From Megaustenia siamemsis (lineage: Eukaryota; Mollusca; Gastropoda; Stylommatophora; Ariophantidae), in contig JAVIAB010000024.1 in NCBI GenBank assembly GCA_032433765.1, positions 12,855,959 through 12,919,958 on the forward strand: DNA of 64,000 nucleotides. Direction: 5' to 3'. The notes below the pieces were generated by a model. It was not told the origin of the DNA. It ran no database searches and was given only the letters and a program-made list of their open reading frames with translations. Every line of letters begins with the position of its first letter. Within the stretch, counting starts at the first letter, position 1. Positions 3,849 to 59,980 of this stretch are shown piece after piece. A program made the translations under genes and the position numbers.

Positions 3849-4160
3849 CCCATTTCTTTGGTAAGGCTATGAGTATTGATTTTAATAGGCCATCTGGTAT
3901 ATTTTACCTGTTATAGATCTGCATTCACATGGAGCATAAAATAAATAAATATTCAGTTAATAAATAATATTCTATACAATAAATAAATATTCAGTAAATA
4001 TTCAAATATTCAGTTTAACTGTTTAAAACTTGTTTTCTTTGTAATTTTAATTATTCTCTTATGTCATGTCATTAAACAATTTAAAAATTCTTCCTTCGAC
4101 ATGCTTACGAGAACTGAGACTGAGTGATTGCAAAAGTGTAGCTGATCTAGGCATGCAAGA
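3849..4160 (+). repeat. Exon-bearing duplication, copy 1
   Basis: This aligns with 5788-6105 over about 310 bp at high identity, including runs such as GGAGCATAAAATAAATAAAT and the LRR-encoding exon. Further matching pieces follow in a different order: 4500-4690 matches 6203-6415, and 4915-5025 matches 6107-6200. The duplication has therefore been rearranged. Confidence 0.8.
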
Positions 4161-4214
4161 GTGGCCAAATTACGTAAGACTCTACGTTACCTCATTGTGG
4201 CAAAATGTATAAAG
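4084..4214 (+). pseudogene. Decayed exon of an F-box/LRR protein (FBXL7-like)
   Basis: Seen: the frame reads ILPSTCLRELRLSDCKSVAD, continues GMQE, then needs one inserted base at 4161/4162 to continue LAKLRKTLRYLIVAKCIK. This is an AMN1/FBXL-type leucine-rich repeat (LxELxLSDCxxVxDxGxxxLA...LRYLxVAxC). Known: FBXL7 has a matching repeat followed by an 'AHCGRVTD' type junction. The exon ends in AAG followed by GTAATG, a good splice donor in phase 0, and 7739 starts a matching phase-0 exon. F-box/LRR proteins are substrate receptors of SCF ubiquitin ligases. The single-base frameshift makes this copy non-coding unless the assembly is wrong. No clear acceptor is visible upstream. Confidence 0.6.
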
Positions 4215-5790: not shown

Positions 5791-6450
5791 ATTTCTTTGG
5801 TAAGACTATGAGTTTTGATTTAATAGGCCATCAGCTATATTTCACCTGTTATAGATTTGCATTCACATGGAGCATAAAATAAATAAATATTCAGTTAATA
5901 AATAATATTCTATACAATAAATACATATTCAGTAAATATTCAAATATTCAGTTTAACTGTTTAAAACTTGTTTTCTTTGTAATTTTAATTATTCTCTATA
6001 TGTCATGTCATTAAACAATTTAAAAATTCTTCCTTCGACATGCTTACGAGAACTGAAACTGAGTGATTGCAAAAGTGTAGCTGATCTAGGCATGCAAGAG
6101 TTGAAGAACAAATTTATCTCTGTATTCTCTTCTGTTGCATTGATAAAAAACTTTCATACGGAAAGTGTTAACCAAAAAAGTACTGTATAGACATATTTTT
6201 TTTATTCCTGAAATTGATGTGAGTAATTGTACTATCTTGTAAAATTCAATAAAGTAATTGTACCAATTGTACCAGCTCACCAACTACCTGCATTTACAAG
6301 TTTAACAGCCAAATATTTATTATAGAAAATATTAGTCTACACGTAATGTGTATCATGCAATTTTTATCACCACAAACATCTGTACTCAGATTTTTTTTCT
6401 TTAAAATGATTTATTAAATTTACCCAATAAGTACAGTATAGTTATGTTTT
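5788..6450 (+). repeat. Exon-bearing duplication, copy 2
   Basis: Paralogue of 3849-5030 with internal blocks reordered. It retains the LRR exon start (6025-6105) and then jumps to a block that in copy 1 lies 750 bp downstream. Confidence 0.75.
6025..6105 (+). pseudogene. Truncated second copy of the FBXL7-like LRR exon
   Basis: It reads ILPSTCLRELKLSDCKSVAD and then GMQEL. It keeps the TTG codon whose T is missing in the copy at 4084, so this copy is in frame at that point. The sequence then diverges into non-LRR DNA and the second half of the repeat and the splice donor are gone. An exon-duplication product that cannot make a complete repeat. Confidence 0.6.
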
Positions 6451-6774: not shown

Positions 6775-7390
6775 CTTTTCTTTCATTTCAATTCTTCCTA
6801 TTCTTCTATAAATCCACATCTGAAAAGCTTAAATATTCTGTTCTATTTTCTTGTCTAATGTCCATCTTTCAGCACCATACATGAATGTTGAGAAGATATA
6901 ACATTTTGCTATTCTTAGTTTTAGCCCTGCTTTATTTGTTTTGATGTTAGTATATTTTTAATGACATTAAAATTACTTTTTACCATTTTCTATTTTTTTA
7001 TTTTTTCTTCCAGTCTTACATTTTCCATCACTGGTTATAGTATGTTCAAAGTAGTTGTAGCTTTGAACTGTCTTCAGGTGTATTTCTTGAAATTTGATAT
7101 CCGCTTGTAGGTTTAGAGTACTTTCTTTGTTTATGATCATAGTTTTAGTCTTTTTGATATTCATATCTAATCCATATTTTTTGCTTATCATGTTTATTTC
7201 ATTTAGCATTTGATGTAGATCTCCAGGATTTTCTGCTAGTAATACAGTATCATCAGCATGTATAACCTAGGTTGCTATCATTCCATTAATGTTTATGCCT
7301 GGCGTCTTTGTGATGTTTTTAAAGATTTTCTCATTGATTAGTTTAAACAAGCTTGGTAATAGAATTTGTGTCACTGTTAAAATATTGACA
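6775..7390 (-). mobile_element. LINE-C reverse transcriptase fragment
   Basis: On the minus strand, from right to left, the frame reads SLFKLINEKIFKNITKTPGI, then HADDTVLLAENPGDLHQMLN (the RT ADD motif, catalytic aspartates near 7250), then KKYGLDMNIKKTKTMIINKE, and then a LYGAE.WTLDKK-type region. Several stops and frameshifts are present. It lies inside what looks like an intron of the FBXL7-like gene remnant. Confidence 0.8.
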
Positions 7391-7738
7391 TATTTATATA
7401 TGGTCTGCTTCAAAAATGTATTTACACATCTACCATTTTATATGAAAAGGTAGTGCAACATTGCTTGATTCTGGTCACAACTTTAATTATAAAAGTCCTG
7501 TTGGTCATAAACAAATATGATCACTAACATCATTATTCCTCCATATATCAAAAGGGATGATGAGTTTAATTTCTACATGTTTACTAGTGTTATGTTTATG
7601 TACAATGTTTAAACATTTAAAGAAAAATATTATAATTGTTGACAGATATGCATATGGACTATTTACAAACATTTACATATATAATTGCTCACAAAGGCCT
7701 GTTATAAACATTTTACAAATTTTTTCATGTTTACCAAG
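7391..7738. other. AT-rich intron-like sequence ending in a splice acceptor
   Basis: Ends with TTTTTTCATGTTTACCAAG immediately before the exon at 7739. The pyrimidine-rich stretch and terminal AG fit a 3' splice site. No other signal is seen. Confidence 0.45.
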
Positions 7739-7985
7739 GTGTCAGACAAAGTGGTCATTTAGATTACTAAGAACTACAACAAGCTATGCTACTTCAACGT
7801 TTGGGGCTGTGAGGCTATCTCAGACACTGGCTTAGATTTTCTGGCACAAAACTGCTCAAGACTTTGCTCGTTGGACATAAGCAAATGTGACATAACAGAC
7901 GATGGACTGTATGCCTTATCTATGCATTGTCCAAATCTACATAAACTTGAGATGAAGTCATGTGATTGCAACAACAGACAAAGGA
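7739..7985 (+). pseudogene. Decayed FBXL7-like exon with three LRRs
   Basis: From 7739 in phase 0 the frame reads VSDKVVI, a TAG stop at 7760-7762, then ITKNYNKLCYFNVWGCEAIS, LDFLAQNCSRLCSLDISKCD and ITDDGLYALSMHCPNLHKLE, ending MKSCD. A frameshift then gives ATTDKGI. These are consecutive 26-residue FBXL/AMN1 leucine-rich repeats. Known FBXL7 has the same order (RVTD..IRYVAKYC..LRYLN.RGCEGITD..). It continues in phase from the donor at 4214|4215. The stop lies where an arginine-like codon is expected. The exon runs directly into LINE-A-derived satellite DNA at about 7988. Family level is fairly certain; orthology to FBXL7 is inferred. Confidence 0.7.
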
Positions 7986-7987
7986 AT

Positions 7988-8137
7988 AGTGAGGATGAGG
8001 ATGTTCTAAAAGAGTAACGAGGGTATTCTAAAAGACTAAAGCGATATTCTGAAAGACTAACGGGGATATTCTGAAAGAGTAATGGGGATATTCTAAAAGA
8101 GTAATTAGGATGTTCTAAAAGAGTAATTAGGGTGTTC
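7988..8137 (+). repeat. 22-bp tandem array derived from LINE-A coding sequence
   Basis: About six or seven copies of a unit of about 22 bp of the form GAGTAAT..GGATRTTCTRAAA. The unit equals the LINE-A segment that encodes KKSNEDVLKEA, and the array runs straight into an unexpanded LINE-A stretch at 8138. Confidence 0.85.
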
Positions 8138-8245
8138 TAAAAGAGGCCAAATCAAAACTGAAAGCTAATTTCCAAAATCAGGAGACATTCATCACTTGGG
8201 GTCATGTCAGGAGAAGGGAACAACTGGGATATTTTGTGACAACTG
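8138..8245 (+). mobile_element. LINE-A fragment between two satellites
   Basis: This aligns to LINE-A sequence between EAKAKRELI and the YIVTTG motif (GCTAATTTCCAAAATCAGG, then GGTCATGTCAGGAGAAGGGA). It connects the 22-bp array on the left to the 19-bp array on the right in the native LINE order. Confidence 0.85.
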
Positions 8246-10715
8246 GGATATTTAGTGACAGCTGGGATGTTTTATGACAGCTGGGATGTTTTATGACAGC
8301 TGGGATGTTTTATGACAGCTTGGATGTTTTGTTGCAGCTAGGATATTTTGTGACAGAGGGATATTTTGTTACAACTGGGATATTTACTGCTGTGATGTTT
8401 TGTGACAACTGAAATACTTTGTGACAACTGAGATATTTTGCTACAACTTTAATATTTTGTTACAACTGAGGTATTTTGTTACAACTGAGATATTTTGTTA
8501 CAACTGAGATATTTTGTTACAACTTTAATAGTTTGTTACAACTTTAATAGTTTGTTACAACTTTAATATTTTGTGGCAACTGAGATATTTTGCTACAGTT
8601 GGGATATTTTCTGTGAACTGATATATTTTGACTGCTGGAATATTTTTTATTACAGCTGGGATATTGCGGTACAGGTGGTATATTTTATGATAAATTGTAT
8701 ATTTTGTGACAGCTGGGATATTTTGTTACAATTGGGGTGTTTTGTAAGAGCTGCATTATTTTGTTACTGCGGGTACATTTTGTTACTGCTGGTACATTTT
8801 GTTACTGCTGTGACATTTTGTGACAAATGAAATATTTTGTAACAGCTGGAATATTTTTTATGACTGGGATAATCTGTTGCAGCTGTGATGTTTTCTGACA
8901 ACTGATATATTTTGTTAAAGCTGAGATATTTTGTGACAACTGAGATAATTTGTGACAACTGTGCTATTTTGTGGCAGCTTGGATGTTTTATGACAGATGG
9001 AATGTTTTATGACAGCTGGGATTTTTTTGTTACAGCTGTAACATTTTGTAACAACTGTGACATTTTGTTGCAGCAGAGATATTTTGTGACAGCTTGGATA
9101 TTTTTTTACAACTGGGATATTTTGTTACTGCTGTGACATTTTGTGACAACTGAAATACTTTGTGACAGCTGGGGTATTTTGTGATAACTGAGATACTTTG
9201 TCACAGCTGGATGATTTTGTGAAAGCTGGGATATTTTATAACTAAGATATTTTGTGACTGCTGGGATATTTTGTTACTGCTGGGATATTTTGTTACTGCT
9301 GGGATATTTTGTTACTGCTATGACATTTTGTGACAACTGAAATATTTTATGACAGCTGGAATATTTTTTTTACCACTGGGATACTTTGTTGCATGTGGGA
9401 TATTTTCTGACAACTGAAATATTGTATTACAGCTTTGATATTTTGTGACAACTAAGATAGTTTGTGACAGTTGGGATATTTTGTGTACATGTGATATTTT
9501 GTGACAGCTGGGATATTTTGTTACTGCTGGGATATTTTGCTACTGCTGGGATATTTATGTGACATCTGGGATATTTATATGACATCTGGGATATTTTGTG
9601 ACAGCTGGAATATTTTGTTATAGCTGGGATATTTTGTAACAAATTATATATTTTGTAACAGCTGGGATATTTTGTAATGACTGGGATACTCTGTTGCAGC
9701 TGGGATATTTTCTGACAACTGAGATATTTTCTGACAACTGAAATATTTTCTGACATCTGAAATATTGTGTTACAGCTTTGATATTTTGTGATAACTGAGA
9801 ATGTTTGTGACAGTTGGGATATTTTGTGACAACTGATATTTTGTGACATGTGATATTTTGCTACTGCTGGGATGTTTTGCTACTGATGGGATATTTATGT
9901 GACAGCTGGGATATTTATGTGACAGCTGGGATATTTATGTGACAGCTGGGATATTTATGTGACAGCTGGGATATTTATGTGACAGCTGGGATATTTTGTG
10001 ACAGCTGGGATATTTTGTGACAGCTGGGATATTTTGTGACAGCTGGGATATTTTGTGACAGCTGGGATATTTTGTGACAGCTGGGATATTTTGTGACAAA
10101 TTATATATTTTGTGACAGCTGGAATATTTTGTGATAGCTGGGATATTTTGTGACAAATTATATATTTTGTAACAGCTGGGATATTTTGTTATGACTGGGA
10201 TACTCTGTTGCAGCTGGGATATTTTCTGACAACTGAAATATTTTATTACAGCTGGGATATTTTGTGACAGCTGGGATATTTTGTGACAGCTGAGATTTTT
10301 TGTGGCATCTGGGATATTTTGTGACAACTGAGATTATTTTTGTTACAACTTTAATATTTTGTGAGAACTTTAATATTTTGTGACAACTTTAATATTTTGT
10401 AACAGCTGACATATTTTATAAGAACTAAGATATTTTGTGACAACTGGGATAATATGTGAAAGCTGGGATAATTTGTTATTTTTGTGGTATTTTGTGACAA
10501 ATGCGATATTTTGTTAGCTAGGATATTTTGTGTGAACTGACATATATTTTGACTGCTGGAATATTATTTTATTACAGCTGGTATATTTTGGTACAGCTTG
10601 TATATTTTGGTACAGCTTGTATATTTTATGACAGCTAGGAATTTTTGTGGCAGCTGGGATATTTTCTTGGATTGTGATATATTATGACAGCTGTGATTTA
10701 TTTGTGACAGCTAAG
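8215..10715 (+). repeat. 19-bp satellite grown inside LINE-A, about 2.5 kb
   Basis: About 130 copies of a 19-bp unit, consensus ACAGCTGGGATATTTTGTG, with 18- to 21-bp variants and frequent AACTTTAAT and CTGTGACATT forms. The first copies are continuous with LINE-A bases that encode QLGYFVTTG, and after 10715 LINE-A resumes at ACAACTGGAAAAATTG. Homogeneous blocks (9880-10090) imply recent local amplification. Frames opening through it are repeat artefacts. Confidence 0.9.
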
Positions 10716-10880
10716 ACAACTGGAAAAATTGTAGTAGGTAGCCATTAGAGCTGAAATAGAGAGGTAGATGCAAGACAATTTCAGAAATGCTCTATTTGTT
10801 AGTCAAAAAAAAAAAAAAACTACAGATATAGAAAGTTATGGAGAGATATGATCACCTACCCCAGCAAGCATGGTACTTGG
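10716..10880 (+). mobile_element. LINE-A 3' end resuming after the 19-bp satellite
   Basis: It starts ACAACTGGAAAAATTG, corresponding to VTTGKI of LINE-A, and ends GAAAGTTATGGAGAGATATG then ATCACCTACCCCAGCA, corresponding to the RKLWRDMITYAS end. A poly-A run lies at 10807. The middle is diverged. Confidence 0.8.
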
Positions 10881-10919
10881 TATTAATAATGACAGCTTTG
10901 CAGTAATAATCAATAACAC

Positions 10920-10990
10920 AAAAATGGTGTGGCCACAAACTATATCTTTCCTCATTGGTTAAATCAAATGAGAGAGGAAAGAACTACTAC
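10920..10990 (+). mobile_element. Short LINE-E 3' end fragment
   Basis: ACAAACTATATCTTTCCTC followed by GAGAGAGGAAAGAA matches the end of the LINE-E copy at 6700-6750. Too short for more. Confidence 0.5.
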
Positions 10991-10999
10991 CCTGCAACT

Positions 11000-11500
11000 C
11001 TGTGCCTCAGCTATGTTCTGTTCTGTTTCTCTTCACCTGTATTTTACAGTTTTGATGGTAAGGAGTGTTCTTGACACGGGTCTGTAGTTTGCTTCATTTA
11101 TAATTAGTAATATGTTTCTTCTGCCTCGTCTTTCCTTCCTTATTTAATTTTCACATCGAGGTGAGAAATAGTTTACAGAATTTTGCTCTTTGATTTCCTC
11201 TTCTGCTTTCACATTTCTTTTTAATATTCTGTCTATCCAACATATTTGAGTGGTATCCTCTTGGATTTTTTATTTTATAGCATTTGTTAATAACTGTATA
11301 GATTGTGTTTGGTTGTTTCTGTCTTTCTTGATTCATAGCCTATTGAATTCATTGTTAAATTATATATTCTTCTTTGGAGGTGTTCCCAAACCTAGTTCTT
11401 ACCTTCTGATTTTGTCTGTCAAGCTGGCTCCCATGATTTATCTGACACATTTCACTTCTGTGGCATTTAACTTATTCTTCTTATTCGACCTTTCAGCTCC
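11000..11500 (-). mobile_element. Unassigned retroelement-like minus-strand segment
   Basis: The minus strand reads NEANYRPVSRTL near 11050-11110, resembling the NYRPVS motif of non-LTR reverse transcriptases. Another open stretch, rich in lysine and arginine, lies at 11151-11336. I cannot connect them to a family. It abuts the 3' end of LINE-G. Confidence 0.35.
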
Positions 11501-14345
11501 CTGTGGAGCATAGGTCTTCAACAAACACTTTCCAAGATGTTCTGTTTCTTACCATTCTTTTAAGATCATTCCACGTCTTCCCCAACATCTTCATCTCTGC
11601 TTCCGTCTGTCTTCTCCAAGAATTCCTAGGTCTTCCTCTTTGTCTTTTTCCCTGAAATTCCAAAAAAAGGACATGTTGTGAAATATTCTCAGCTGCCTTC
11701 CGCAGTGTGTGTCCTATCCAGCACCATCGTCTTCACTGTATCTCTGGTACATTTTCATAATTCTTTGTTAGTGATTTTGTCCTGCCATTTCCATCCTTCT
11801 ATTCTGCATAAACATCCATTAATGAAAGTCTGTATCTTCATGATTGTAATTTTTGTTGTTCTCCATGTTTTGCAGTCTTATAATAAGACTAACTTAACAT
11901 TGGAGCTGAAAATTTTTATTTTAGTATTTAACCTAATTTCTTTGAACTTACATATGTTTCTCAGTGGAAGAAATGCTCCTCTTGCTTTTGATATCCTTAC
12001 TTTGGTATCATTTCTGTTCCTTCCTCTTTGTCTATATTACTGTCCAGATATATGTAAGATTGTACATTTAGTAGAGGTATTTCTCCTATTTTTATTTGGT
12101 TATTGCCAACTGCATTAATTCTCATAATTTTGTTCTTATCTCTATTTTCAGTCTCGTCTGTTGTGAACTCTCATCAAGTATGCTCATTTTATCTTGCATC
12201 TGTTGATGGTTGTGTGATAGGAGAGCTATGATAAATAATCGATTAGCTTGGTCAGTGACCACTGAATTCCATTTCTATTGTTTTGAATTATTTTCATAAT
12301 ACAATCTATGGCCAGTAGAAAGAGAAATGGAGATAGAAGGTATCCCTGACTTACTCCTGTTATTATTTCAAATGCTTTTGTAAGCTGCCCTTCATGCACC
12401 ACACTACATTTCATTTCTTCATACATTGTTCTTATCAGATTAATGAACTTTGTGGTGATTCCAAATTTACTCAGAAACTTCCAAAGCATTCCTCTGTCTA
12501 AACTATGAAATGCCTTTTTGTAATCTATGAATCCAATATAAAGTGGGGACTATAGTTCTAAACTTTGTCCAATTATTATACATAGGGTAGTTATTTGATC
12601 AGCACATGATCTGTTTTTCCTAAAACCTGCTTGTTCATCTCTCAAATGTTTCTCTATAGTCTGTTTTCTGCTTAATATTTTTTTCTGGCACTTATAGTAG
12701 CATATTTCCCCTATAATTTGTGCACTCCTGTAAACTTTAGTAGTTTGATCATATAACCTTCTTTCCGGTCTTTAGGTATTTCTTCCCTCTCCCAAATTTT
12801 ATCCATTAGATTATGTAATATCTTGGCTGAGGTGTTAATATCTGCTTTGATGACTTCCGAAGGAATTTCATCTGGTCCTGTGGCTTTACCATTTTTTAAT
12901 AGTTTGATGGCTTTCATTATTTCTTCCTTGCTTTGTTTTCCACAGTTAACGTGTAACTCTTCTTCTGCTGGCAGTATATCTGGAGGGTTATTTGAGCCAG
13001 ATCTGTTCAAAAGTTCTTCAAAGTGCTCTTTCCATCTCTCCATTTGTTCCTTTATATTACTAAGCAGATTTCCTTTCTTATGTTTAATAAAGGCATTGAT
13101 CTGTTTGTATTTTCCACTTAATTTCTTTATGCTGTTGTACAGTTCTTTCATATTCCCTTTATTTGCTGCTTCTTCTGCCTCTTTAACTAGTTCATCTAGA
13201 TATTTCCTTTTATCCCTTTTAATGCATCTTCTCACTTCTTTGTTCACCCTGTGTAAGCTTCCTGTGTCTTGACTTTATTACTTCTCATTTTGCTTTTATT
13301 TATGTCTGCTTTCTTGTTCTTTCTTTCTTTAATTTTATCCAGGGTCTCTGCTGTCATCCATGCCTTATTCAGGCATTCTCTTCCCCCCCCCCCAGCGTTT
13401 CTTCAAATGTCTCTTTCCATATATTCTTTACCTGTTTCCAATGATCTTCTATATTTATTGTATTTTCTAGTTGTTGGAGGACTTGGTATTTTTTAAATAT
13501 TGTGACTGCAAATTTATCTTTAATTCTCTGTTCTTTAAGAAATTATACATTGAAATACTTTCCACCCTTTTTTGTTGTAGTATCTTTTTAGTTTAAGTTT
13601 AAGTTTGGCTAGCAGAAGATGATGGTCTAAAGCCACATCTGCTCCTCTATATACTTTTACATTCTGTAAGGATGACTTCTACTTATTATTAATTCATATG
13701 TGGGCAATTAGATTCTCCATTCTATGATCTAGTGACACCCATATAGCTTTATGTATTCTTTTATGTTGGAATATTGTTCCTCCTAGGCTCATTTGATTAA
13801 GAGCACAGAATTTCATGAATATATCTCTATTCTCATTTATATCTCCAAGTCCATGTTTTCCCGTAATCTCTTCGAAGCCTCTGTTGTCTGATCCTACTTT
13901 TGCATTTAGATATCCCATCAAGATTATAATATCCTTGGCTCGTTTTGCATCCATCTGACATTGTAGCTGTTTATAGAAGTCATCTTTAACTAAATCATCC
14001 TTATCGTTGGTTGGTGCATAGCATTGGATAATGTGTAATTTTATTTTGTTTTTGGTTGTTTTAAATGTTGCTCTCATTAGTCTTGGTCCTACTGCTTCCC
14101 ATTCTATCAGTGTCTTCTGTGCTTTCCTTGATAACATTATGATAACTCCTTGACTATGTTGTGCTCCAGGTTCCCAGTGTCCTGATGATAAAATCATCTC
14201 TCCTGTATTTAGTTTTATCCTTTCCATTCCTAGCCATCATGTTTCACACATTCCTAGAATATCTATTTTGTCATTTCTAATTTCTGTTGCTACCTGTGCA
14301 ACTTTTTCTTGTTCATTTAGGGTACATACATTCAGGTGCCAAATC
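11501..14345 (-). mobile_element. LINE-G: near-complete, broken RTE-like retrotransposon
   Basis: Seen from 14345 leftwards on the minus strand: an apurinic-type endonuclease starting NVCTLNEQEKVAQV with IDILGMCET, a TGA stop where R is usual before W, then SSGHWEPGAQHSQGVIIMLS, IQCYAPTND, ILMGYLNAKVGSDN and a weakened SLDHRMEN. Next come a linker (13247-12850) with QMERWKEHFEELLNR, the RT fingers LLKNGKATGPDEIPSEVIKA, FIDYKKAF, and ITGVSQGYLLSPFLFLLAID. The YADD box region near 12200 is broken, and the C-terminal tail ends RPRNSWRR-like before 11500. Known: EN nicks target DNA and RT copies the RNA into the nick. About 2.9 kb is close to full RTE length. Stops and frameshifts make it dead. 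Plus-strand frames here are shadows. Confidence 0.85.
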
Positions 14346-17129: not shown

Positions 17130-17385
17130 GAACAAAAGACATGAAATTTTTGGGGCATGGTTAAAGACATGACAGCATAACAAATGTAATATTGATGGGA
17201 AAATACAATGTAAAAGAGGTAGAGGCATAAAAAGACTAACATGGACAAGTAACATCAAAGGATGGAAAAGTCAGACTATGACACTCTGTACCATTAAAGC
17301 AAGAGACAGAGTGACGTGGCGCTACATGATAGCCAACCTTAGATGCGGAGACGGCACTCAATGATGATGATAATGAGTATAAAAA
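17130..17385 (+). mobile_element. LINE-C 3' end (in duplication copy 1)
   Basis: Encodes RGIKRLTWTSNIKGW, then TIKARDRVTWRYMIANLRCG and DGTQ, ending in an ATGATGATGATAATG tail. Shared with copy 2 at 19780-20030, so it predates the duplication. Confidence 0.75.
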
Positions 17386-17620
17386 AGAGATAGACAATTA
17401 CAGGTCAGACATTCAAATAGAGAGACAGTCAATTATTTCTTTAAATTTGTAAACTGAGAATCAAGTTCTAAATAGTTTATAAAACTTGTAGTATGTGGTG
17501 TTACATTGAGCGTTGTTCATTTATTCTTGCTGTGGAAGTCAAAAGTTAAAGTAAGGAAGATAACTTCTAGTTTTCGAAAAAAATTATTACTAATTTGGTA
17601 TTTGCAACCACACATTAAAA

Positions 17621-18339
17621 ATAGATACATATCTTTTAGTTTGAGAGGCTAGAGATAATGCTTTCTTACAAAGATTTTAAAAGTCGAGTTATATATTTTG
17701 TGAAAGAATATTTTTTGTAGCGTAATATACAAAATCTTGACACTGATAATAATTTGCAATATATAGTTGTTTTGGCCATTTTTGCAATTTTTAACATTAT
17801 AGCAGTTGCTTCCCTTTTAATAAAAGAATATAACTGTAAATTTCTAAATCGGACATGAATTTATTAATTTTTTCATCAACAATTCAACGGCAGAAGACTT
17901 TCTTGCATTTAAGTTTGATACCTTAGAACGAACCGTGCCTGTAAATATTATGCAACATTTGAATATACATTCTTCAAAGAATTATTATTTTTCTTAGCTG
18001 ATAATCAACTGATTAATGTTTATAAGCATTTTTATAGATTACAGCAGCAAAAGAAATTAAGTTACAAAAACTATGCCGTCTGGTCACTTCAACTGTAGAG
18101 TCGAGTAGAGATAACTTGAAAATATTGTAACAACAAGAGAAAATGTTGCAGAGAGACAGAGAAAGATATCAATAACACAAGGAAAAATACTATGCATTTG
18201 AAAATTCAAAATTGTGGTAGAAAAACTGAGGGGTGTTAGAGATAGACAATTACACAAAATTCATGTCACTGGGAGAGGGAGGGAGGCAGCTTAAAATCCT
18301 AACATTAAGAGAGAGAGAGTGGCGGTTATAAACAATTCC
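17621..18339. other. AT-rich spacer with a third, diverged partial copy of the duplication
   Basis: At 18083-18330 the sequence again resembles the duplicated unit (AGAGATAACTTGAAAATATTG, ATCAATAACACAAGG, CTTAAAATCCTAACATTAAG), with much lower identity. The rest is AT-rich without signal. Confidence 0.55.
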
Positions 18340-18905
18340 ATGAACTTCTGATTGTGGTTTCAGAACCTTATCTCTGGACAAGGTGATGAAATCATTGCCG
18401 TGACTTTCTTCACTGATGAGGCACGGTTTCATCTCCCCGATTATGTCAACAAGTAAGAACAATCGTGTGTGGAGCAGTAAAAACGGCATGAATTATATCA
18501 AATATCCCTTAGTGATCGGAAAGTCGCATGCGGATAATAATGAAACATTTTTCAATCCAACAACCAACTCAGCACGTTATCGTACTTTAAGCCTGGAATT
18601 ATTCGTAGACCACCTTACTGGGCGAGAAATTAAAGAAACTTGGTTTCAGCAAGATGGTGCAACAGCAAACACAATCGCAAACATCACTTACTTATTAAGA
18701 AAACGTATTTGCAAATTGCATTATTTCACTTGGAATCTGGCCTGCTCTTTCACCAGACCTAATCCTGTCTAATTATTATCGGGGGAAGGGGAGGGGGGCG
18801 GTGAGTTGAAAATATAATGTTTATCAAAACAATGTGCAGACAGTTAATGACCTGAAGAAGGAAATAGTCACCCAGAGCGAACAAATATCATCGGTCATTA
18901 TCCAA
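18340..18905 (+). pseudogene. Mariner/Tc1-type transposase remnant
   Basis: Spread over three frames: VTFFTDEARFHLPDYVNK (first catalytic D in TDE), stop, then NNRVWSSKN, TTNSARYRTLSLELFVDHLT, ETWFQQDGATANT (second D) and WPALSPDL (third D, about 35 residues later). This order is the DDE/D catalytic core of the mariner/Tc1 superfamily (DDE_3). At least two frameshifts, a stop, and loss of the motif between WSSKN and TTNSARY make it dead. It ends where duplication copy 2 begins. No terminal inverted repeats were found by eye. Confidence 0.8.
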
Positions 18906-18906
18906 G

Positions 18907-20272
18907 TAGGTTTTGGAAAATAAGAAGAGGCATGTGGTGGATATTTAGAACACATGCTGCAAACACAACTTCAACGTGTGAAAACCTACTTTACCCAATA
19001 CAAGCCCGCCAAGAGCAATAGTGTCTAGATGACTAATACACATTTTATTTACAATTTCCCGTAATTTCAAATATATTTTCACTGCGCCGCTACTTTCAAT
19101 AGCTTTGTTTTCTTTCTGTGGCAGAAGTTGTCTCCCGGGTGTTAAAAAAAGAGGACGATAACTTTAAATTCTAGAAAGAAATTAATAATAATTTTTTTCA
19201 TTCTGGTCACTTGGCTGCTGAGTCGAGATGAGGATAACTTGAAAATATTGTAACAACAAGAGAAAGTGTTAGAGAGCGAGATGTCAATAACACAAGGAAA
19301 CTGCAACTCTGCAGTTGAAAATTCAAATGAATGGACTGGGGATGTAGAGAAAGGTAATTACAGGGAAACCTTATCATTGAAAGATGGAGAGAGACAGTTT
19401 AAAATCATAATGTAAAGAGAGAGAAAGAAACAGTTTTTAAAAAATGCTGACTTTGAAAGACAAAGATTAAAATGATATGATTATAAGAGATAAAGTTGAA
19501 AATAATTGAGTTAAGAGAGTTAGAGAGAGTTTATATTTCTAGCATAAAATGTTGACATTTAAAAATCCAAGAATGACAAGAGAGACGGTTTAAGATACTA
19601 GCATAAAGAAAATCTCAGTTAAAAATCTTAATGTGTAAAGAAATAGTTTAAAATGCTAGTATTAACAAAGAAACATTTAACATCATAATATGTAAATAAA
19701 CGCATTTTAAAATCTTAGCATGAAAAGTAAACAAACGATGAAATTTTAAAACAACTAAAAATGTAATGAGAAATACTAAATACAATTAGAACAAAAGACA
19801 TGCAATTTTTGGGGCATGTTTAAAGACATGACAAGTGTAATATTTGAAGGGAAAATACAATGTAAAAGAGGCAGAGGCATAAAAAGACTAACATGGACAA
19901 GTAACATCAAAGGATGGGAAAAGTCAGCCTATGACACTCTGCTCCATTAAAGCAAGAGACAGAGTGGAGTGGCGTTACATGGTAGCCAACCTTCGATGCG
20001 GAGACGGCACTCAATGATGATGATAATGAGTAATAAAAGAGATAGACAATTACAGGTCAGACATTCAAATAGAGATACAGTGAATTATTTCTTTAAATTT
20101 GTAAACTAAGAATCAAGTTCTAAATAGTTTATAAAACTTGTAGTATGTGGTGTTACATTGAGCGTTGTTCATTTATTCTTGCTGTGGAAGTCAAAAGTTA
20201 AAGCAAGGAAGATAACTTCTAGTTTTCGAAAGAAATTATTACTAATTTGGTATTTGCAACCACAAATTAAAA
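18907..20272 (+). repeat. 1.4-kb duplication, copy 2
   Basis: Paralogue of 16097-17620, shorter mainly because it lacks the LINE-D insertion. It begins exactly where the mariner-like transposase remnant ends, so the duplicated unit probably includes the end of that transposon. Confidence 0.85.
19780..20030 (+). mobile_element. LINE-C 3' end (in duplication copy 2)
   Basis: Same sequence as 17130-17385 with small differences; reads ARDRVEWRYMVANLRCGDGT before an ATGATGATGATAATG tail. Confidence 0.75.
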
Positions 20273-20283
20273 ATATTTTATTT

Positions 20284-20715
20284 TGGTTATTGAAGGCCCC
20301 GGTATCACTGCAAAAGAATTAAAATCCATAATTGCTTAACTGCCCGTTCCAGTGGAATCATCCGAATTATTATCTCATCTCACAAACAAAGAAAGGTAGC
20401 TGTTGCCCCCATCATTGCAGTCTCAGCACACGCCAAAAGACATAAGTTGAAAATGCACAAAAAGTGAACACAGCCAAGTGTTCCCTGTCATACGATATCA
20501 TCACTCATCGTAAACAATCGGAATATCGAAACACGATCAAAACGGATGAGACACACAGCTCACAGTGTGCACGGAGCACTTAACTCAGTAGCTCATGCAA
20601 CAAGCCGGACCGGGAATACGAGGAAACTGCAACGAGGAACACATTTAGACATAGCCTCCAATGGTTTCTGCCGCCTATCCACTATATTGACCAGAAGTTC
20701 ACGCCCTCATAAAAA
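20284..20715 (+). repeat. Dispersed repeat X, copy 1
   Basis: Starts ATTGAAGGCCCCGGTATCAC. Broken frames read IEGPGITAKELKSIIA and later AHSVHGALNSVAHATSRTGN, conserved with the copies at 33985, 59655 and (minus) 30375, so the repeat was probably protein-coding. The protein is unrecognised. It has an uninterrupted AATCGGAATATCGAAACACG site where copy 33985 carries a SINE. Confidence 0.7.
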
Positions 20716-22439: not shown

Positions 22440-23366
22440 TTGGTAATGTTTCAACAAATACAACAGGGTGTTTGGCAAGGTTGTGTGCTGTCACCAGATT
22501 TGTTTAATATGGATAGTGAGATTATTTTAAGATCCATAAGGGGCATGCCTGAAATAACAATCGGAGGTCATAATATAAATAATCTATGGTATGCTGATGA
22601 TACAGCCTTAATCGCTAAGAGTGAAAGTAAGTTACAGGAAATGTTTGACATTATAATGAAAGAAAGCCAAAATAAAGTACCCAGGCTTAATTGCTAAAAG
22701 GCAGAAATAATGGTAACAATAAAGAAAATGACATCAGCTCATTGCAAAATAAAGACAAGTGGACCAATATTAAAACAGGTAAATGAATTTAAATATCTGG
22801 GAACAATGTTAAATTCAGATGGTAGATGTGCAACAGAGGTGAGATGTAGAATGGCTCAGGCAAAAGCAGCTTTCCAGAATTGAGGTAGATATTATGCAAT
22901 CCATATATGACAGTGAAAACACGAAAATGTGAACTTAAATGTTATGTAGAACCAGTTTTAACATATGGATGTGAATCATGGCAATAGGGCAACAGACAAG
23001 AAAATCACTGGAGGCTGTAGAAATGTAGTTTTACAGAAGAATGTTGAGAATACCATGGACAGCTAAGAAGAGTAATGAAAACGTCCTGAAAGAGGCCAAA
23101 GCAAAAAGACAGCTAATTTCCAATATTAGGAAGAAACAATCATCCTTTTTTGGCCGTGAAATGAGAAGAGAACAGCTGGAATATATTGTAACAACTGGGA
23201 CAATTGAGAGATAGAGGGAAGCACAGAGAAAAGATACCAGACAGCTTAAGAGAATGGCTTGGCAGAAGGTCAACAACAGAAATGATAAATAACTGTAGTG
23301 AACTAAGTTGTGGGGAGACATGATCACCTTCGCCAGCAGGCTTGGTACTTGATGATGATGATTCTA
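22440..23366 (+). mobile_element. LINE-A RT-to-tail copy
   Basis: Contains the RT palm QQGVWQGCVLSPDLFN, the catalytic NLWYADDTALIA box, VNEFKYLGTMLNSDG, a YGCES-like region, the SNENVLKEAKAK segment, YIVTTG and the RKLWRDM-like tail, ending TGATGATGATGATT. Stops occur after RLNC and elsewhere. It is the longest LINE-A copy in the window. Confidence 0.85.
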
Positions 23367-23394
23367 GTACGAGATTATTTTTTTTTAATTATTT

Positions 23395-34132: not shown

Positions 34133-34230
34133 ACGCGTTAAAAGACGCGTTAAAAGACGCGTTAAAAGACGCGTTAAAAGACGCGTTAAAAGACGCGTTA
34201 AAAGACGCGTTAAAAGACGCGTTAAAAAGT
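34133..34230 (+). repeat. 12-bp minisatellite CGCGTTAAAAGA, eight copies
   Basis: Perfect repeats of CGCGTTAAAAGA, giving R-V-K-R in the repeat-X frame. Other repeat-X copies carry a single CACGYCAAAAGACA at this place. Confidence 0.9.
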
Positions 34231-39405: not shown

Positions 39406-42400
39406 GTTCATCTTTGGATAGGATGGGACAAATTACAATTGTGGGCATGATGGGGCAAATAAAAGTCTAAATTATGATTGGTCAACAAATAATCTTAAAT
39501 AAAATGGGAAAAACAAAATTCTATGATAGGATGGGAAAACCAATAATCTATGATTGGATGGGGCAACAAATAATCTATGATTGGATGGGGCAACAAATAA
39601 TCTTGGATAGGATGGGACAATCATTAATCTTGGATAGGATGGGACAACCAATAATATTGGATAGGATAGGGTAACAAATAATCTTGGATAGGATGGGACA
39701 ATCAATAATCTTGGATAGGATGGGAAAACCAATAATCTATGATTGGATGGGGTTACCAATAATTTTTGGATAGGATGGGGTAACAAATAATCTTGGATAG
39801 GATGGCGCAACCAATAATCTTGAATAGGATTGGGTAACAAATAATCTTCGATAGGATGGCACAACCAATAATCTTGGATAGGATGGGGTAATAAAAAATC
39901 TTGGATAGGATGGGACAACCAATAATCTTGGATAGGATGCGACATCCAATAATCTTGGATAGGATGGGACAACCAATAATCATGGATAGGATGGGACAAC
40001 CAATAATCTTGGATAAGATGAGGTAACAAATAATCTTGGATAGGATTAGACAACCAATAATCTTGGATAGGATGGGGCAACTAATAATCTTGGATAGGAT
40101 GATGTAACAAATAATCTTGGATAGGATGGGACAACCAATAATCTTGGATAGGATGGGACAACCAATAATCTTGGATAGGATGGGGTAACAAATAATCTTG
40201 GATAGGATGGGACAATCAATAATCTTGGATAGGATGGGACAAACAGTAACCTTAGATAGGATGGGACAACCAATATTCTTAGATAGGATTGGACAACCAA
40301 TAATTTGGGATAGGATGGGACAAAAAATAATCTTGGATAGGATGCGACAATCAATAATCTTGGATAGGATGGGACAACCAATAATCTTGGATAGGATGGG
40401 ACAACAAATAATCTTGGATAGGATGGGACAACCAATAATCTTGGATAGGATGGGACAACCAACAATCTTGGATAGGATGGGACAACCAATAATCTTGGAT
40501 AGGATGGGACAACCAATAATCTTGGATAAGATGGGACAACCATTAACCTTGGATAGGAAGAGACAACCAACAATCTTGGATAGGATGGGACAACCAATAA
40601 TCTTACTTAGGATGGGACAACCAATAATCTTGGATAGGATGTGACAACCAATAATCTTGGATAGGTAGGGTCAACCAATAATCTTAGATAGGATGGGACA
40701 ACCAGTAATCTTGGATAGGATGGGACAACCAATAATCTTGGATAGGAAAAGACAACCAATAATCCTGGATAGGATGGGACAACCACTAATCTTAGATAGG
40801 ATGGGACAACCAATAATCTTTTATAGGATGGGACAACCTATAATCTTGGATAGGATGGGACAACCAATAATCTTGGATAGGATGGGACAACCAATAATCT
40901 TGGATAGGATGGGACAACCAATAATCTTGGATAGGATGGGGCAACCAATAATCTTGGATAGGATGGGGTAACAAAAATAATCTTGGATGGGATAGGACAA
41001 CCAATAATCTTGGATGGGATGGGACAACCAATAATCTTAGATAGGATGGGACAACCAATAATCTTGGATAGGATGGGACAACCAATAATCTTGGATAGGA
41101 TGAGACAACCAATAATCTTGGATAGGATGGGACAACCAATAATCTGGGATGGGATGAGACAACCAATAATCTTGGATAGGATGGGACAACCAATAATCTT
41201 GGATAGGATGGGGTAAAAAATAATCTTGTATAAGATGGGGCAACCAATAATCTTGGATAGGATGGGGCAACCAATAAACTTAGATAGGATGGGACAACCA
41301 ATAATCTTGGATAGGATGGGGTAACAAATAATCTTGGATATTATGGGACAACCAATAATCTTGCATAGGATGGGATAACCAATAATCTCGGATAGGATGG
41401 GACAACCAATAATCTTGGATAGGATGGACAACCAATAATCTTAGATAGGATGAGACAACCAATAATCTTGGATAGGATGGGACAAATAATAATCTTGGAT
41501 AGGATGGGACAACCAATAATCTTGGATAGGATGGGACAACCAATAATCTTGGATAGGATGGGACAACCAATAATCTTGGATAGGATGATGTAACAAATAA
41601 TCTTGGATAGGATGGGACAACCAATAATCTTGGATAGGATGGGACAACCAATAATCTTGGATATAATGGTGTAACAAAAAATCTTGGATAGGATGGGACA
41701 ATCAATAACCTTGGATAGGATGGGACAACCAATAATCTTAGATAGGATGGGACAACCAATAATCTTAGATAGGATGGGACAACCAATAATCTTGGATAGG
41801 ATGGGACAACCAATAATCTTGGATAGGATGGGACAAATGGGACAACCAATAATCTTGGATATAATGGGACAATAAATAATCTTGGATTCGATGGGACAAC
41901 CAATAATCTTGGACAGGATGGGACAACCAATAATCTTGGATAGGATGATGTAACAAATAATCTTGGACAGGATGGGACAACCAAAAATCTTGGATAGGAT
42001 GGGACAACCAATAATCTTGGATAGGATGGGGTAACAAATAATCTTGGATAGGATGGGACAATCAATAATCTTGGATAGGATGGGACAACCAATAATCTTA
42101 GATAGGATGGGACAACCAATAATCTTAGATAGGATGGGACAACAAATAATCTTGGACAGGATGGGACAATCAATAATCTTGTATAGGATGGGACAAATAA
42201 TAATCTTGGATAGGATGGGACAACAAATAATCTTGGATAAGATGGGACAACCAATAATCTTGGATAGGATGGGACAACCAATAATCTTGGATAGGATGGG
42301 ACAACAATAATCTTGGATAGGATGGGACAACCAATAATCTTGGATAGGATGGGACAACCAATAACCTTGGTTAGGAAGAGACAACCAACAATCTTGGATA

Positions 42401-45400
42401 GGATGGGCAACCAATAATCTTACCTAGGATGGGACAACCTATAATCTTCGATAGGATGTGACAACCAATAATCTTGGATAGGATGGGACAACCAATAATC
42501 TTAGATAGGATGGGGCAACAAGTAATCTTGGATAGGATGTGACAACCAATACTCTTGGATAGGAAGAGACAACCAATAATCTTGGATAGGATGGGACAAC
42601 CACTAATGTTAGATAGGATAGGACAACCAATAATCTTGGATATGATGGGACAACCAATAATCTTGGATAGGATGGGACAACCAATAATATTGGATAGGAT
42701 GGGACAACCTATAATCTTGGATAGGATGGGACAACCAATAATCTTGGATAGGATGGGACAACTAATAATCTTGGATTCGATGGGACAACCAATAATCTTG
42801 GATAGGATTGGGTAACCAATAATCTTGGATAGGAGGGGACAACCAATAATCTTGGATACGATAGGAAAACCAAAAATCTTAGATAGGATGGGACAACCAA
42901 TAATCTTGGATTGGATAGGACAACCAATAATCTTGGATAGGATGGGACAACCAATAATCTTGGATAGGATGGGACAACCAATAATATTGGATAGGATGGG
43001 ACAACCTATAATCTTGGATAGGATGGGACAACCAATAATCTTGGATAGGATGGGACAACTAATAATCTTGGATTCGATGGGACAACCAATAATCTTGGAT
43101 AGGATTGGGTAACCAATAATCTTGGATAGGAGGGGACAACCAATAATCTTGGATACGATAGGAAAACCAAAAATCTTAGATAGGATGGGACAACCAATAA
43201 TCTTGGATTGGATGGGACAACCAATAATCTTGGATAGGATGGGGTAACGAATAATCTTGGATAGGATGGGACAACCAATAATCTTGGATAGGACAACCAA
43301 TAATCTTGGATAGGATGGGACAACCAATAATCTTGAATATAATGGGACAACCAATAATCTTGGATAGGACGGGACAACCAATAATCTTAGATAGGATGGG
43401 ACAACCATTAACCTTGGATAGGATGGGACAACCAATAATCTTGGATAGGATGGGACAACCAATAATCTTGGATGGGATGGGACAACCAATAAACTTGGAT
43501 GGGATGGGACAACCAATAATCTTGGATGGGATGGGACAACCAATAATCTTAGATAGGATGGGACATCCAATAATCTTGGATAGGATGGGACAACCAATAA
43601 TCTTGGATAGGATGGGACAACCAATAATCTGGGATAGGATGAGACAACCAATAATCTTGGATAGGATGGGACAACCAATAATCTTGGATAGGATGGGGTA
43701 ACAAATAATCTTGTATAGGATGGGGCAACCAATAATCTTGGATAGGATGGGGCAACCAATAAACTTAGATAGGATGGGACAACCAATAATCTTGGATAGG
43801 ATGGGTAACAAATAATCTTGGATAGGATGGGACAACCAATAATCTTGGATAGGATGGGACAACCAATAATCTTAGATAGGATGGGACAACCAATAATCTT
43901 GGATAGGATGGGACAACCAATAATCTTGGATATTATGGGACAACCAATAATCTTGCATAGGATGGGATAACCAATAATCTCGGATAGGATGGGACAACCA
44001 ATAATCTTGGATAGGATGGACAACCAATAATCTTAGATAGGATGAGACAACCAATAATCTTGGATAGGATGGGACAACTAATAATCTTGGATAGGATGGG
44101 ACAACCAATAATCTTGGATAGGATGGGACAACCAATAATCTTGGATAGGATGGGACAACCAATAATCTTGGATAGGATGATGTAACAAATAATCTTGGAT
44201 AGGATGGGACAACCAATAATCTTGGATAGGATGGGACCACCAATAATCTTGTATAGGATGGTGTAACAAAAATCTTGGATAGGATGGGACAATCAATAAC
44301 CTTGGATAGGATGGGACAACCAATAATCTTAGATAGGATGGGACAACCAATAATCTTAGATAGGATGGGACAACCAATAATCTTGGATAGGATGGGACAA
44401 CCAATTATCTTGGATAGGATGGGACAAATGGGACAACCAATAATCTTGGATATAATGGGACAATAAATAATCTTGGATTCGATGGGACAACCAATAATCT
44501 TGGATAGGATGGGACAACCAATAATCTTGGATAGGATGATGTAACAAATAATCTTGGATAGGATGGGACAACCAAAAATCTTGGATAGGATGGGACAACC
44601 AATAATCTTGGATAGGATGGGGTAACAAATAATCTTGGATAGGATGAGACAATCAATAATCTTGTATAGGATGGGACAACCAATAATCTTAGATAGGATG
44701 GGACAACCAATAATCTTAGATAGGATGGGACAACAAATAATCTTGGACAGGATGGGACAATCAATAATCTTGTATAGGATGGGACAATAATAATCTTGGA
44801 TAGGATGGGACAACAAATAATCTTGGATAGGATGGGACAACCAATAATCTTGGATAGGATGGGACAACCAATAATCTTGGATAGGATGGGACAACCAATA
44901 ATCTTGGATAGGATGGGACAACCTTTAATCTTGGATAGGATGGGACAACCAATAACCTTGGATAGGAAGAGACAACCAACAATCTTGGATAGGATGGGCA
45001 ACCAATAATCTTACCTAGGATGGGACAACCTATAATCTTCGATAGGATGTGACAACCAATAATCTTGGATAGGATGGGACAACCAATAATCTTAGATAGG
45101 ATGGGGCAACAAGTAATCTTGGATAGGATGTGACAACCAATACTCTTGGATAGGAAGAGACAACCAATAATCTTGGATAGGATGGGACAACCACTAATGT
45201 TAGATAGGATGGGACAACCAATAATCTTAGATAGGATGGGACAACCAATAATCTTGGATAGGATAGGACAACCAATAATCTTGGATAGGATGGGACAACC
45301 AATAATCTTGGATAGGATGGGACAACCAATAATATTGGATAGGATGGGACAACCTATAATCTTGGATAGGATGGGACAACCAATAATCTTGGATAGGATG

Positions 45401-46615
45401 GGACAACTAATAATCTTGGATTCGATGGGACAACCAATAATCTTGGATAGGATTGGGTAACCAATAATCTTGGATAGGAGGGGACAACCAATAATCTTGG
45501 ATACGATAGGACAACCAAAAATCTTAGATAGGATGGGACAACCAATAATCTTGGATTGGATGGGACAACCAATAATCTTGGATAGGATGGGGTAACGAAT
45601 AATCTTGGATAGGATGGGACAACCAATAATCTTGGATAGGACAACCAATAATCTTGGATAGGAAGGGACAACCAATATTCTTGGATAGGATGGGACAACC
45701 AATAATCTTGAATATAATGGGACAACCAATAATCTTGGATAGGATGGGACAACCAATAATCTTAGATAGGATGGGACAACCATTAACCTTGGATAGGAAG
45801 AGACAACCAACAATTTTGGATAGGATGGGACAACCAATAATCTTGGATAGGATGGGACAACCAATAATCTTGGATAGGATGGGACAACCAATAATCTTGG
45901 ATAGGATGGGGTAACAAATAATCTTGGATAGGATGGGACAACCAATAATCTTGGATACGTTGGGACAACCAATAATCTTAGATAGGATGGGCAACCAATA
46001 ATCTTGGATAGGATGGGACAACCAATAATCTTGGATAGGATGGGACAACCAATAATCTTGGAAAGGATGGGACAACCAATAATCTTGGATAGGATGGGAC
46101 AACCAATAATCTTGGATAGGTTGGACAACCAATAATCTTAGATAGGATGGGACAACCAATAATCTTGGATAGGGTGGGACAACCATTAACCTTGGATAGG
46201 AAGAGACAACCAACAATCTTGGATAGGATGGGACAACCAACAATCTTGGATAGGATGGGACAACCAATAATCTTAGATAGGATGGGACAACTAATAATCT
46301 TGGATAGGATGGGACAACCAATAATCTTGGATAGGATGGGACAACCAATAATCTTGGATGGGATGGGACAACCAATAATCTTGGATGCGATGGGACAACC
46401 AATAATCTTGGATAGGATGGGACAACCAATAATCTTGGATAGGATAGGACAACCAATAACCTTGGATAGGATGGGACAACCAATAATCTTGGATAGGATG
46501 GGACAACCAATAACCTTGGATAGGATGGGACAACCAATAACCTTGGATAGGATGGGACAACCAATAATCTTGGATAGGATGGGACAACCAATAATCTTGA
46601 ATAGGAAGGGACAAC
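39406..46615. repeat. 27-bp satellite array, 7.2 kb, about 267 copies
   Basis: The unit is ATAATCTTGGATAGGATGGG followed by ACAACCA. Both strands stay open for long stretches because 27 is a multiple of three; MGQPIILDR on plus and SYPRLLVVP, DYWLSHPIQ or ILSKIIGCP on minus are all artefacts. Each consensus unit carries CCAAT. Edges are more diverged (39406-39900) than the centre. From about 41300 a higher-order unit of about 2.59 kb repeats: a 1-bp-deleted monomer at 41424 recurs at 44015, and a monomer with CTTACCTAGG at 42421 recurs at 45012. A smaller 297-bp duplication lies at 42700-43120. Confidence 0.95.
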
Positions 46616-46949
46616 CCTCATACACATATCTTCAGTTTCTGTGTATGGTGTCGGGTATACAACCTTCTCATCTCATATCAGATCTAGAGCTCATGAAATA
46701 AAATCTGCAGAGCTGGAGTTACAGTCAAACCCTCACAAAATGTCAACATTAAAATAAAAAATCTCATTAACTCTAGAAAAGTAGCTTTTAGATATGTTGT
46801 ATCGATTATCGATGTGAGCTCTACGGGTCGTGTAAAAGTGATCTCTTTTTATTAAATATACTGATCGAATCGGAATCGTTAATGGACATGGCAGCATACA
46901 ACATAACGCGTTTTTTTCTTCAAAATTAAAAATTATATCAAATGTTCAT
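46616..46949. other. Right flank of the 27-bp satellite
   Basis: No gene. AT-rich from 46730. Confidence 0.4.
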
Positions 46950-49429: not shown

Positions 49430-50660
49430 ATATAAAAGTTGAAATTAACAACGACGTTAGGTACCATCATCAAGTACCGGATCTGCTAGCGTAGGTGATC
49501 ATGTCTCTCCATAACTTTCGATCTCGACAGTTATTTATCATTTCTGTTGTTGACCTTCTGCCAAGCCGTTCTCTTAAGCAGTCTGGTATTTTTTTCATTT
49601 TGCTTCCCTCTATCTCTTCGTCCGTCAATTTTTGCAGTTGTTACAATATATTCCATTTTTTCTCTTCTCATTACATGGCCAAAAAATGATGATTGTGTCT
49701 TCCTAATATTGGAAATTAGCTCTCGTTTTGCTTTGACCTCTTTCAGAACATTCTGAAATTACGTTAGGTAAAAAAGCTGAAATTAACAATAACGTTGGGT
49801 ATAAAAGCTGAAATTAACAATGACGTTGGGTATAAAAGCTGAAATTAACAATGACGTTGGGTATAAAAGCTGAAATTAACAATAACGTTAGGTATAAAAG
49901 CTTAAATTAGCAACGACGTTGGGTATGAAAGCTTAAATTAACAACGACGTTGGGTATAAAAGCTAAAATTAACAATGACTTTAGGTATAAAAGCTGAAAT
50001 TAACAATGACGCTGGGTATAAAAGCTAAAATTAACAATGACGTTGGGTATAAAAGCTGAAATTAACAATGACGTTTTGTATAAAAGCTGAAATTAACAAT
50101 GACGTTTTGTATAAAAGCTTAAATTAACAACGACGTTATGTATAACAGCTAAAATTAACAATGACTTTGGGTATAAAAGCTAAAATTAACAACGACGTTA
50201 GGTATAAGAGCTAAAATTAACAATGACGTTGAGTATAAAAGCTGAATTTAACAATGACGTTGAGTGTAAAAGCTAAAATTAACAACGACGTTGGGTATAA
50301 GAGCTAAACTTAACAACGACGTTAGGTATAAAAGCTAAAATTAACAATGGCGTCAGGTATAAAAGTTAAAATTAACAATGACGTTAGGTATAAAAGCTAA
50401 AATTAACAACGACGTTAGGTATAAAAGCTGAAATTAACAATGGCGTTAGGTATAAAAGCTAAAATTAACAATGACGTTAGGTATAAAAGCTAAACTTAAC
50501 AACGACGTTAGGTATAAAAGCTAAAATTAACAATGGCGTTAGGTATAAAAGCTAAAATTAACAATGGCGTTAGGTATAAAAGCTAAAATTAACAACGACG
50601 TTAGTTATAAAAGCTGAAATTAAGAACGACGTAAGGTATAAAAGCTGAAATTAACGCGAT
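49430..50660 (+). repeat. 31-bp tandem array, about 29 copies, split by LINE-A
   Basis: The unit is TATAAAAGCTGAAATTAACA followed by ATGACGTTGGG. The first unit (49430-49463) is separated from the rest by a LINE-A insertion. Subtypes ACGACG/ATGACG/ATGGCG are interspersed. Confidence 0.9.
49464..49760 (-). mobile_element. LINE-A 3' fragment inserted in the 31-bp array
   Basis: The minus strand reads from EVKAKRELISNIRK-like to YIVTT and the DMITYAS end. Flanked by the exact 10-bp duplication ACGTTAGGTA (49454-49463 and 49761-49770), a repeat-unit sequence. Confidence 0.85.
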
Positions 50661-56559: not shown

Positions 56560-56720
56560 TTTTTTAGTCATGTATTGAGAAGAGAGCAACTGGAATATAT
56601 TGTAACAACTGGAAAAATTGAGGGACGAAGAGATATAGGGAAGCAAAGAGAAAAGAATAACAGACAGCTTAAGAGAACGGCTTGGCAGAAGGTCAAAAAC
56701 AGAAATGATAAATAGTATGT
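56560..56720 (+). mobile_element. LINE-A fragment
   Basis: Encodes RREQLEYIVTTGKIEGRRDI in one frame and stops before the usual tail. It contains an intact CAACTGG...CAACTGG pair 19 bp apart (56589 and 56608). Confidence 0.75.
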
Positions 56721-59654: not shown

Positions 59655-59980
59655 TTATGGAAGGCCCGGGTATCACTGAAAACAAATTAAAATCCATAAT
59701 TGCTCAACCGCCCATGCCAGTGGAATCATCCGAATTACTAACTCATCTCTCAAACAAAGAAAGGTAGCTGAAGTCCCAAATTATAACAGTCTCAGCACAC
59801 GTCAAAAGACATAAGACAAAACCGCACAGAAAGTGAACACAGCCGACTGTTCCTTGTCATACGATATCATCATTCATCGTAAACAATTGAATATCGAAAC
59901 ACAATAAAACCGGATGAAACACACAGCTCACGGTGTGCACAGATCACTTAACTCAGTAGCTCCTGCAACCAATTTATGTT
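59655..59980 (+). repeat. Dispersed repeat X, copy 4
   Basis: Starts GGAAGGCCCGGGTATCACTG and carries the IIAQPPMPVESSELLTHLSN reading. It has an empty SINE site (AACAATTGAATATCG) and only a single CACGTCAAAAGACA unit. Ends near ACTCAGTAGCTCCTGCAACC. Confidence 0.7.

Follow-up and report, generated by a model that had tools for sequence, protein, structure and literature searches.

Birth of minisatellites between direct repeats of 5-10 bp, also inside transposable elements, is described in the consulted sections of two reports (PMC6947457, PMC3389668), through which the route between short direct repeats can be followed back to Haber and Louis (1998) and Taylor and Breden (2000). For human, the consulted part of Ahmed and Liang (2012, PMC3389668) counts 300 element-derived tandem repeats flanked by direct repeats of 5-20 bp among a total of 7,276, and it also refers to the Alu-derived minisatellites of Jurka and Gentles. 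The 19-bp array described here was found in a window of 64,000 nucleotides (the whole stretch of DNA that was analysed). It resembles the births presented in those sections (PMC6947457, PMC3389668) in that short repeats flank the future unit, the period equals the spacing of these repeats and the edges keep them. We found no description of this particular array in the literature searched, which does not establish that none exists. The features of the locus and two unexpanded seeds are as follows.

7763..7963, plus strand: F-box/LRR-like coding stretch, a probable exon, just upstream of the arrays (LRR_6 and PDB matches)
7995..8145, plus strand: 22-bp array, 6.9 copies, from about positions 630-657 of the LINE-A consensus (TRF; unit match to LINE-A)
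8115..8219, plus strand: left LINE-A piece, its last 75 bp or so lying between the two arrays (68-78% to longer window copies; single-copy query; profile)
8220..10712, plus strand: 19-bp array, 131.3 copies, consensus ACAGCTGGGATATTTTGTG (TRF; monomer list)
10716..10895, plus strand: right LINE-A piece, which resumes at ACAACTGGAAAAATTG and is strongly diverged at 10732-10813
23172..23200, plus strand: unexpanded seed in another LINE-A copy (allowing up to 3 mismatches, nothing else outside the array matches the 19-mer)
56587..56612, plus strand: unexpanded seed with an exact CAACTGG pair 19 bp apart (at 56587/56606)

The 2.5-kb array of 19-bp units reported in the initial annotation was recovered by TRF at 8220-10712 (period 19, 131.3 copies, 76% matches). 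When cut into units it gave 133 pieces (8220-10735), 105 of them exactly 19 bp long, with a mean identity of 0.84 to the consensus. Unit identity reached its peak of 0.915 at 9970-10219, was 0.85 at the left edge and was lowest (0.794) at 8470-8719 and 10470-10719, and a core at about 9882-10095 was nearly uniform. Also, 95-bp stretches within the array reappeared 400, 457 and 514 bp further on, with 88-93 positions matching. This combination of a uniform centre, diverged sides and block duplications fits turnover by unequal exchange. An open frame of 140 aa was present on the minus strand inside the array (9427-9849); it exists because the 19-bp unit is free of stops in every minus-strand frame, and it was not taken as a gene.

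The LINE-A stretch at 22440-22694 matched RVT_1 (E 6e-9) and a short-repeat 3' tail, TGATGATGA, was observed; we take the element to be of the RTE-like clade. LINE-A had been annotated on both sides of the array, and the flanks are indeed colinear, but the left one starts at about 8115 (7995 counting the 22-bp array) and not at 8138. Over 8115-8248, similarity was 73-78% to five longer copies in the window and 68% to a sixth; on the right side, it covered 10814-10892 together with a short match at 10715-10731. A query taken from one other LINE-A copy (22440-23375) found 8116-8264 (E 2e-14) and 10685-10885 (E 2e-7) in colinear order. A profile made of ten other LINE-A copies of the window, with the 8220-10712 locus excluded, gave 121.1 bits for the joined flanks, 86.8 for the left flank alone and 38.7 for the right one alone. 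In the profile alignment, every LINE-A position was present at the join, where one extra base is a product of the chosen cut position. The diverged stretch 10732-10813 scored better as LINE-A than 494 of 500 shuffles. As previously reported, LINE-A resumes at 10716 at the coding position VTTGKI, where ACAACTGGAAAAATTG was read. The sequence ACAACTGG is present at 8220 and at 10716, i.e., both array ends bear the repeat and the host LINE-A continues.

The 19-bp consensus matches the LINE-A consensus at the junction at 16 of 19 positions, a score found anywhere in 1 of 1000 dinucleotide-shuffled LINE-A sequences. Among the 79 matches of the 19-mer in the window (up to 3 mismatches), 78 fell in the array and one at 23172-23190, against 0.04 expected by chance outside the array. 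A scan of viral contigs for a 27-nt pattern of the repeat gave nothing, in a collection not expected to include this genome. The unit agreed at 14-16 of 19 positions with eight seed-bearing LINE-A copies and at 11-13 with five more distant relatives. The array is thus a transposable-element-derived tandem repeat, its unit being homologous to one place in LINE-A and lying inside a LINE-A copy. The initial annotation had attributed a CAACTGG pair with a spacing of 19 bp to the unexpanded copies in general. Such a pair does exist, at 56587/56606 rather than 56589/56608, but outside the array the window has no second exact pair, and the others are degenerate. When each of the eight unexpanded copies with a seed is compared with itself at a shift of 19 bp, only 5-11 of 18 positions agree, which makes the seed a degenerate direct repeat (ACARCTGG at 19-bp spacing). 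Spaced repeats of 7-10 bp occur elsewhere in these LINE copies without arrays, and the seed is permissive for expansion and insufficient by itself.

Altogether, birth of the 19-bp array from LINE-A coding sequence is well supported, and the proposal that it grew in place is supported, since the flanks are colinear, the position is exact, the period equals the direct-repeat spacing and the window holds no other source of the unit. Its likely route is the known one, in which short direct repeats spaced by 19 bp undergo slippage or unequal exchange. Hairpins at CAGCTG palindromes were predicted in six uniform units (z -5.9) and could favour slippage; no weight was given to this prediction, as any tandem palindrome folds in this way.

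The neighbouring array, which the initial annotation does not mention, presents a similar relationship to its host. Its 22-bp unit agrees with the adjoining LINE-A consensus stretch at 18 of 22 positions, which was equalled by 3 of 1000 shuffles, and (A)AAGAG occurs twice in LINE-A, 22 bp apart, at the source of this array. Thus, each of the two arrays has a period equal to the distance between short direct repeats that pre-existed in the local LINE-A sequence. LINE-A sequence was also searched for upstream of the 22-bp array and none was found.

Among 21 arrays of the window with a period of at least 10 (small and overlapping TRF rows having been removed by hand), only one besides the two LINE-A arrays was shown with an empty site. 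This 12-bp array (34133-34227, 7.9 copies, 100% matches) lies inside another dispersed repeat and is absent from the copies of this host near 20380-20560 and 59750-59930, a further in-place expansion. A minus-strand LINE-A copy (49463-49754) has one 31-bp unit (49431-49463) on one side and a 31-bp array (49757-50655) on the other; it may have landed within the array, or the array may have expanded next to it. The largest array of the window (39476-46616, 7.1 kb) contains 264 copies of a 27-bp unit, and no dispersed copies of its flanks were found in the window. Scans of the window for tRNAs and Rfam families gave no hit. The endonuclease-like frame at 13697-14227 had no Pfam match; it gave 273 protein matches, and the named ones among the 120 listed were largely from Schistosoma and gastropods.

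Copies of the locus were searched in the 2.59-Gb assembly, in which the window was placed at C24:12855959-12919958, each search scoring its best candidates only. The initial annotation had described one LINE-A copy, but the array-bearing left piece was found at 40 scored places including the window (94-100% identity, the best of 1567 first-look candidates), with 94-99% identity at the 39 other places. Fifteen of these 39 were fetched as 10-kb stretches, and all 15 kept the order 22-bp array, LINE-A piece, 19-bp array; the LINE-A piece is there by selection through the query, and the finding is the presence of arrays on both sides. The 19-bp array contained 36 units in copies L015 and L016 and 60 in L012, whereas L009 had 247 and L023 had 332 or more; measured lengths lay between about 0.7 kb and 6.3 kb or more.

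A query consisting of the array alone, for which the best 40 of 1174 candidates were scored, gave 215 matches. From those listed, 43 were chosen by hand and formed 33 clusters, and the ten clusters absent from the left-flank places were sampled at both ends. Arrays without LINE-A flanks, named in the initial annotation as evidence against the LINE-A origin, could thus be looked for. The 5' edge was reached in six of the ten, and all six had the LRR segment and the 22-bp array as well as LINE-A (the four other 5' tiles being still in the array or unresolved), but the right LINE-A piece was missing in five of the ten, which go from the array directly to window position 10986. One more goes to window position 12810 and four gave no 3' edge.

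A third query, made of the joined flanks, gave 60 matches (40 of 3703 candidates scored). The join lies at 93/94 of this query, and the 40 main matches start at position 93, 94 or 100. No match spans the join, and no unexpanded sister locus was found among the scored candidates. At eight places known from this query alone, the array ran up to the same junction in all eight. After merging (40 + 43 + 40 places, 20 minor joined-flank matches being excluded), the searches yielded 100 sites on 26 contigs, 10 of which were common to more than one search. Sequence was read at 34 sites (the window plus 15, 10 and 8), with the 19-bp array in 34 of 34, and beyond these we infer a site from one edge or from the array alone. 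As each search scores only the best candidates, the real number of sites may exceed 100. The 15 fetched copies and the eight right-flank loci were found by flank queries, and only the sequence beside the query is independent. No array with as few as two or three units, as an intermediate, was seen.

These results bear on the reading that the array grew recently in a single LINE-A copy, the window then holding seed, product and flanks of one fresh event. All observations made inside the window agree with it, including the uniform core. The genome search refutes it, as the same arrangement occurs at many sites and the diversity of units is common to the copies, and we regard it as barely credible. 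What had been presented as a direct view of satellite birth is an old product, and no unexpanded version in the same context was found.

The right LINE-A piece and its junction were retained in six of the 15 fetched copies, in addition to the window. Six copies (L011, L012, L013, L015, L016 and L020) are without this piece, and a SINE-like piece precedes window position 10859; the right array edge was not found in three of the 15. At about 20 right-flank places, a second match to query positions 237-252 was seen about 260 bp onward (window 10838-10860), which would fit the insertion of an element of about 260 bp that left a target-site duplication of some 16 bp. The 19-bp array of L021 contains a LINE-A copy (9296-9569) whose seed is unexpanded, and LINE-A and array therefore also meet in reverse order. 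This order would suit an array that arose elsewhere and was subsequently inserted or gene-converted into the LINE-A remnant. We nevertheless consider such an origin very unlikely, given that the match of the unit to LINE-A falls exactly at the insertion point, in phase and with no LINE-A position lost, and that none of the six 5' edges reached was free of LINE-A.

Just upstream of the arrays, the stretch 7763-8014 matched LRR_6 (E 1.3e-7), and its best PDB sequence match was F-box/LRR-repeat protein 2 (6o60_C, E 1e-24). The part at 7763-7963 was recovered in 21 of 25 sequences searched, the remaining four being tiles inside the array; 11 of these 21 other copies are open and 10 present a stop or a frameshift. 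The LINE-A remnant lies just 3' of this probable exon and probably in an intron. LRR-like stretches are also found at 4016-4162 and 5954-6101, as near-copies of one another, and together with 7763-7963 they may represent a large F-box/LRR-like family or the remains thereof.

Similarity between copies extends further on both sides. Tiles about 13 kb upstream matched the sequence just before the window in three of three copies (89-96%), and about 13 kb downstream, two of four tiles matched window 17131-18950 at 90-92%, another matched at 76% and one had no match. As both ends match in the C47 and C73 copies, the shared segment, which was sampled and not fully read, spans no less than about 23 kb when counted in window coordinates, and 27 kb in these two copies; its ends were not found, the common sequence reaching past the sampled tiles. 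Spread by retrotransposition of an active LINE-A subfamily carrying the array might be proposed, as LINE-A is a dispersed family and the array sits within it. This is extremely improbable, because the copies have in common non-LINE flanks far past LINE-A, with the LRR exon in 21 other copies and the tiles at about 13 kb. Further out, tiles 25-40 kb downstream of three copies (L045, L046, L048, L049, L051, L052) were mostly 94-100% identical to one another, with offsets that fit a tandem unit of about 2.73 kb (derived by hand), and tiles about 25 kb upstream of three copies (L056, L058, L060) had another tandem repeat in common, about 74-82% identical between tiles.

The shared segment may be either a giant mobile element or a segmental duplication. 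It is conceivable, if rather doubtful, that a giant mobile element of more than 20 kb, bearing an F-box/LRR gene fragment and a LINE remnant, seeded the LINE-born minisatellite genome-wide. If so, a gene-bearing transposon would spread a minisatellite, and the array of each copy would then grow or shrink.

Compared with the window, the LINE-A piece of the 15 copies was identical at 71-73 of 74-75 positions, and the stretch 6900-7700 was 93-98% identical; the stretch 11000-11600 was 95-98% identical in 12 copies and unaligned in three. In nine arrays (the window and 8 of the 15), unit similarity was 0.72-0.79 within arrays and 0.73-0.76 between them, units being slightly more alike within the two shortest. 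Since units differ about as much within a copy as between copies, the array was, we infer, already long and diverse before it spread. Assembly artefacts in array lengths or copy number are very unlikely: the near-uniform core (about 9882-10095) could cause the exact length to be misjudged, but the units are heterogeneous (mean identity 0.84, as above) and unique flanks on many contigs differ from each other, as over 6900-7700.

We therefore hold it as highly probable that the minisatellite was born once, long ago, in a 5'-truncated LINE-A remnant and was then multiplied within a larger segment. This history would start from a LINE-A coding sequence with the ACARCTGG repeat at 19 bp and (A)AAGAG at 22 bp, both of which are seen in LINE-A. 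Slippage or unequal exchange within each repeat pair would have given the first duplication, and ordinary tandem-repeat turnover, suggested by the block duplications and the uniform core, would have made both arrays grow. A segment of about 23 kb or more, with the exon, the arrays and the LINE-A flanks, would then have been copied to many sites, the array being already long and diverse; the basis of this step is the colinear sequence shared in the samples. Afterwards, array lengths changed copy by copy, as the unit counts show. Against this history stand the absence of few-unit intermediates and the rarity of the exact seed pair (one in the window), the presence of the right LINE-A piece in just six of the 15 fetched copies and the window, with five of ten sampled arrays skipping it, and the downstream tiles, one of the four reaching only 76% and one being unmatched.

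For this array, a single assembly contains the position it came from, the product itself and numerous descendants that have evolved separately. One can thus measure how fast array length changes relative to flank divergence; for example, the window has 131 units and L009 has 247, though two flank stretches are 97.8-97.9% identical. These copies also make it possible to ask if the LINE positions that expand can be predicted from spaced direct repeats. Our data further indicate that a view limited to a window can take an old, multiplied array for a fresh birth.

The array is real and was correctly traced to LINE-A, and it is an old, multiplied example of a kind of array already known. Unlike the direct-repeat births described in the consulted sections of PMC6947457 and PMC3389668, it concerns a coding stretch on the reverse-transcriptase side of a LINE, where two adjacent expansions took place and the product was subsequently multiplied as part of a larger segment. 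As with the human element-derived tandem repeats, single element copies expand in place; however, most human cases, in the consulted part of PMC3389668, have few units at one locus, whereas 36 to over 300 units are found here at many loci. The satellites of Lathyrus LTR retrotransposons, as presented in the sections consulted of Vondrak et al. (2019, PMC7004042), are similar in that arrays reside in a dispersed carrier and are lengthened in some copies, but their carrier is an LTR retrotransposon and the present one is a segment that combines an F-box/LRR-like exon with a dead LINE piece. The satellite-like arrays of Helentrons in the Pacific oyster, according to the portion of PMC7492417 consulted, offer a further parallel, as there too short arrays are dispersed by a larger carrier.
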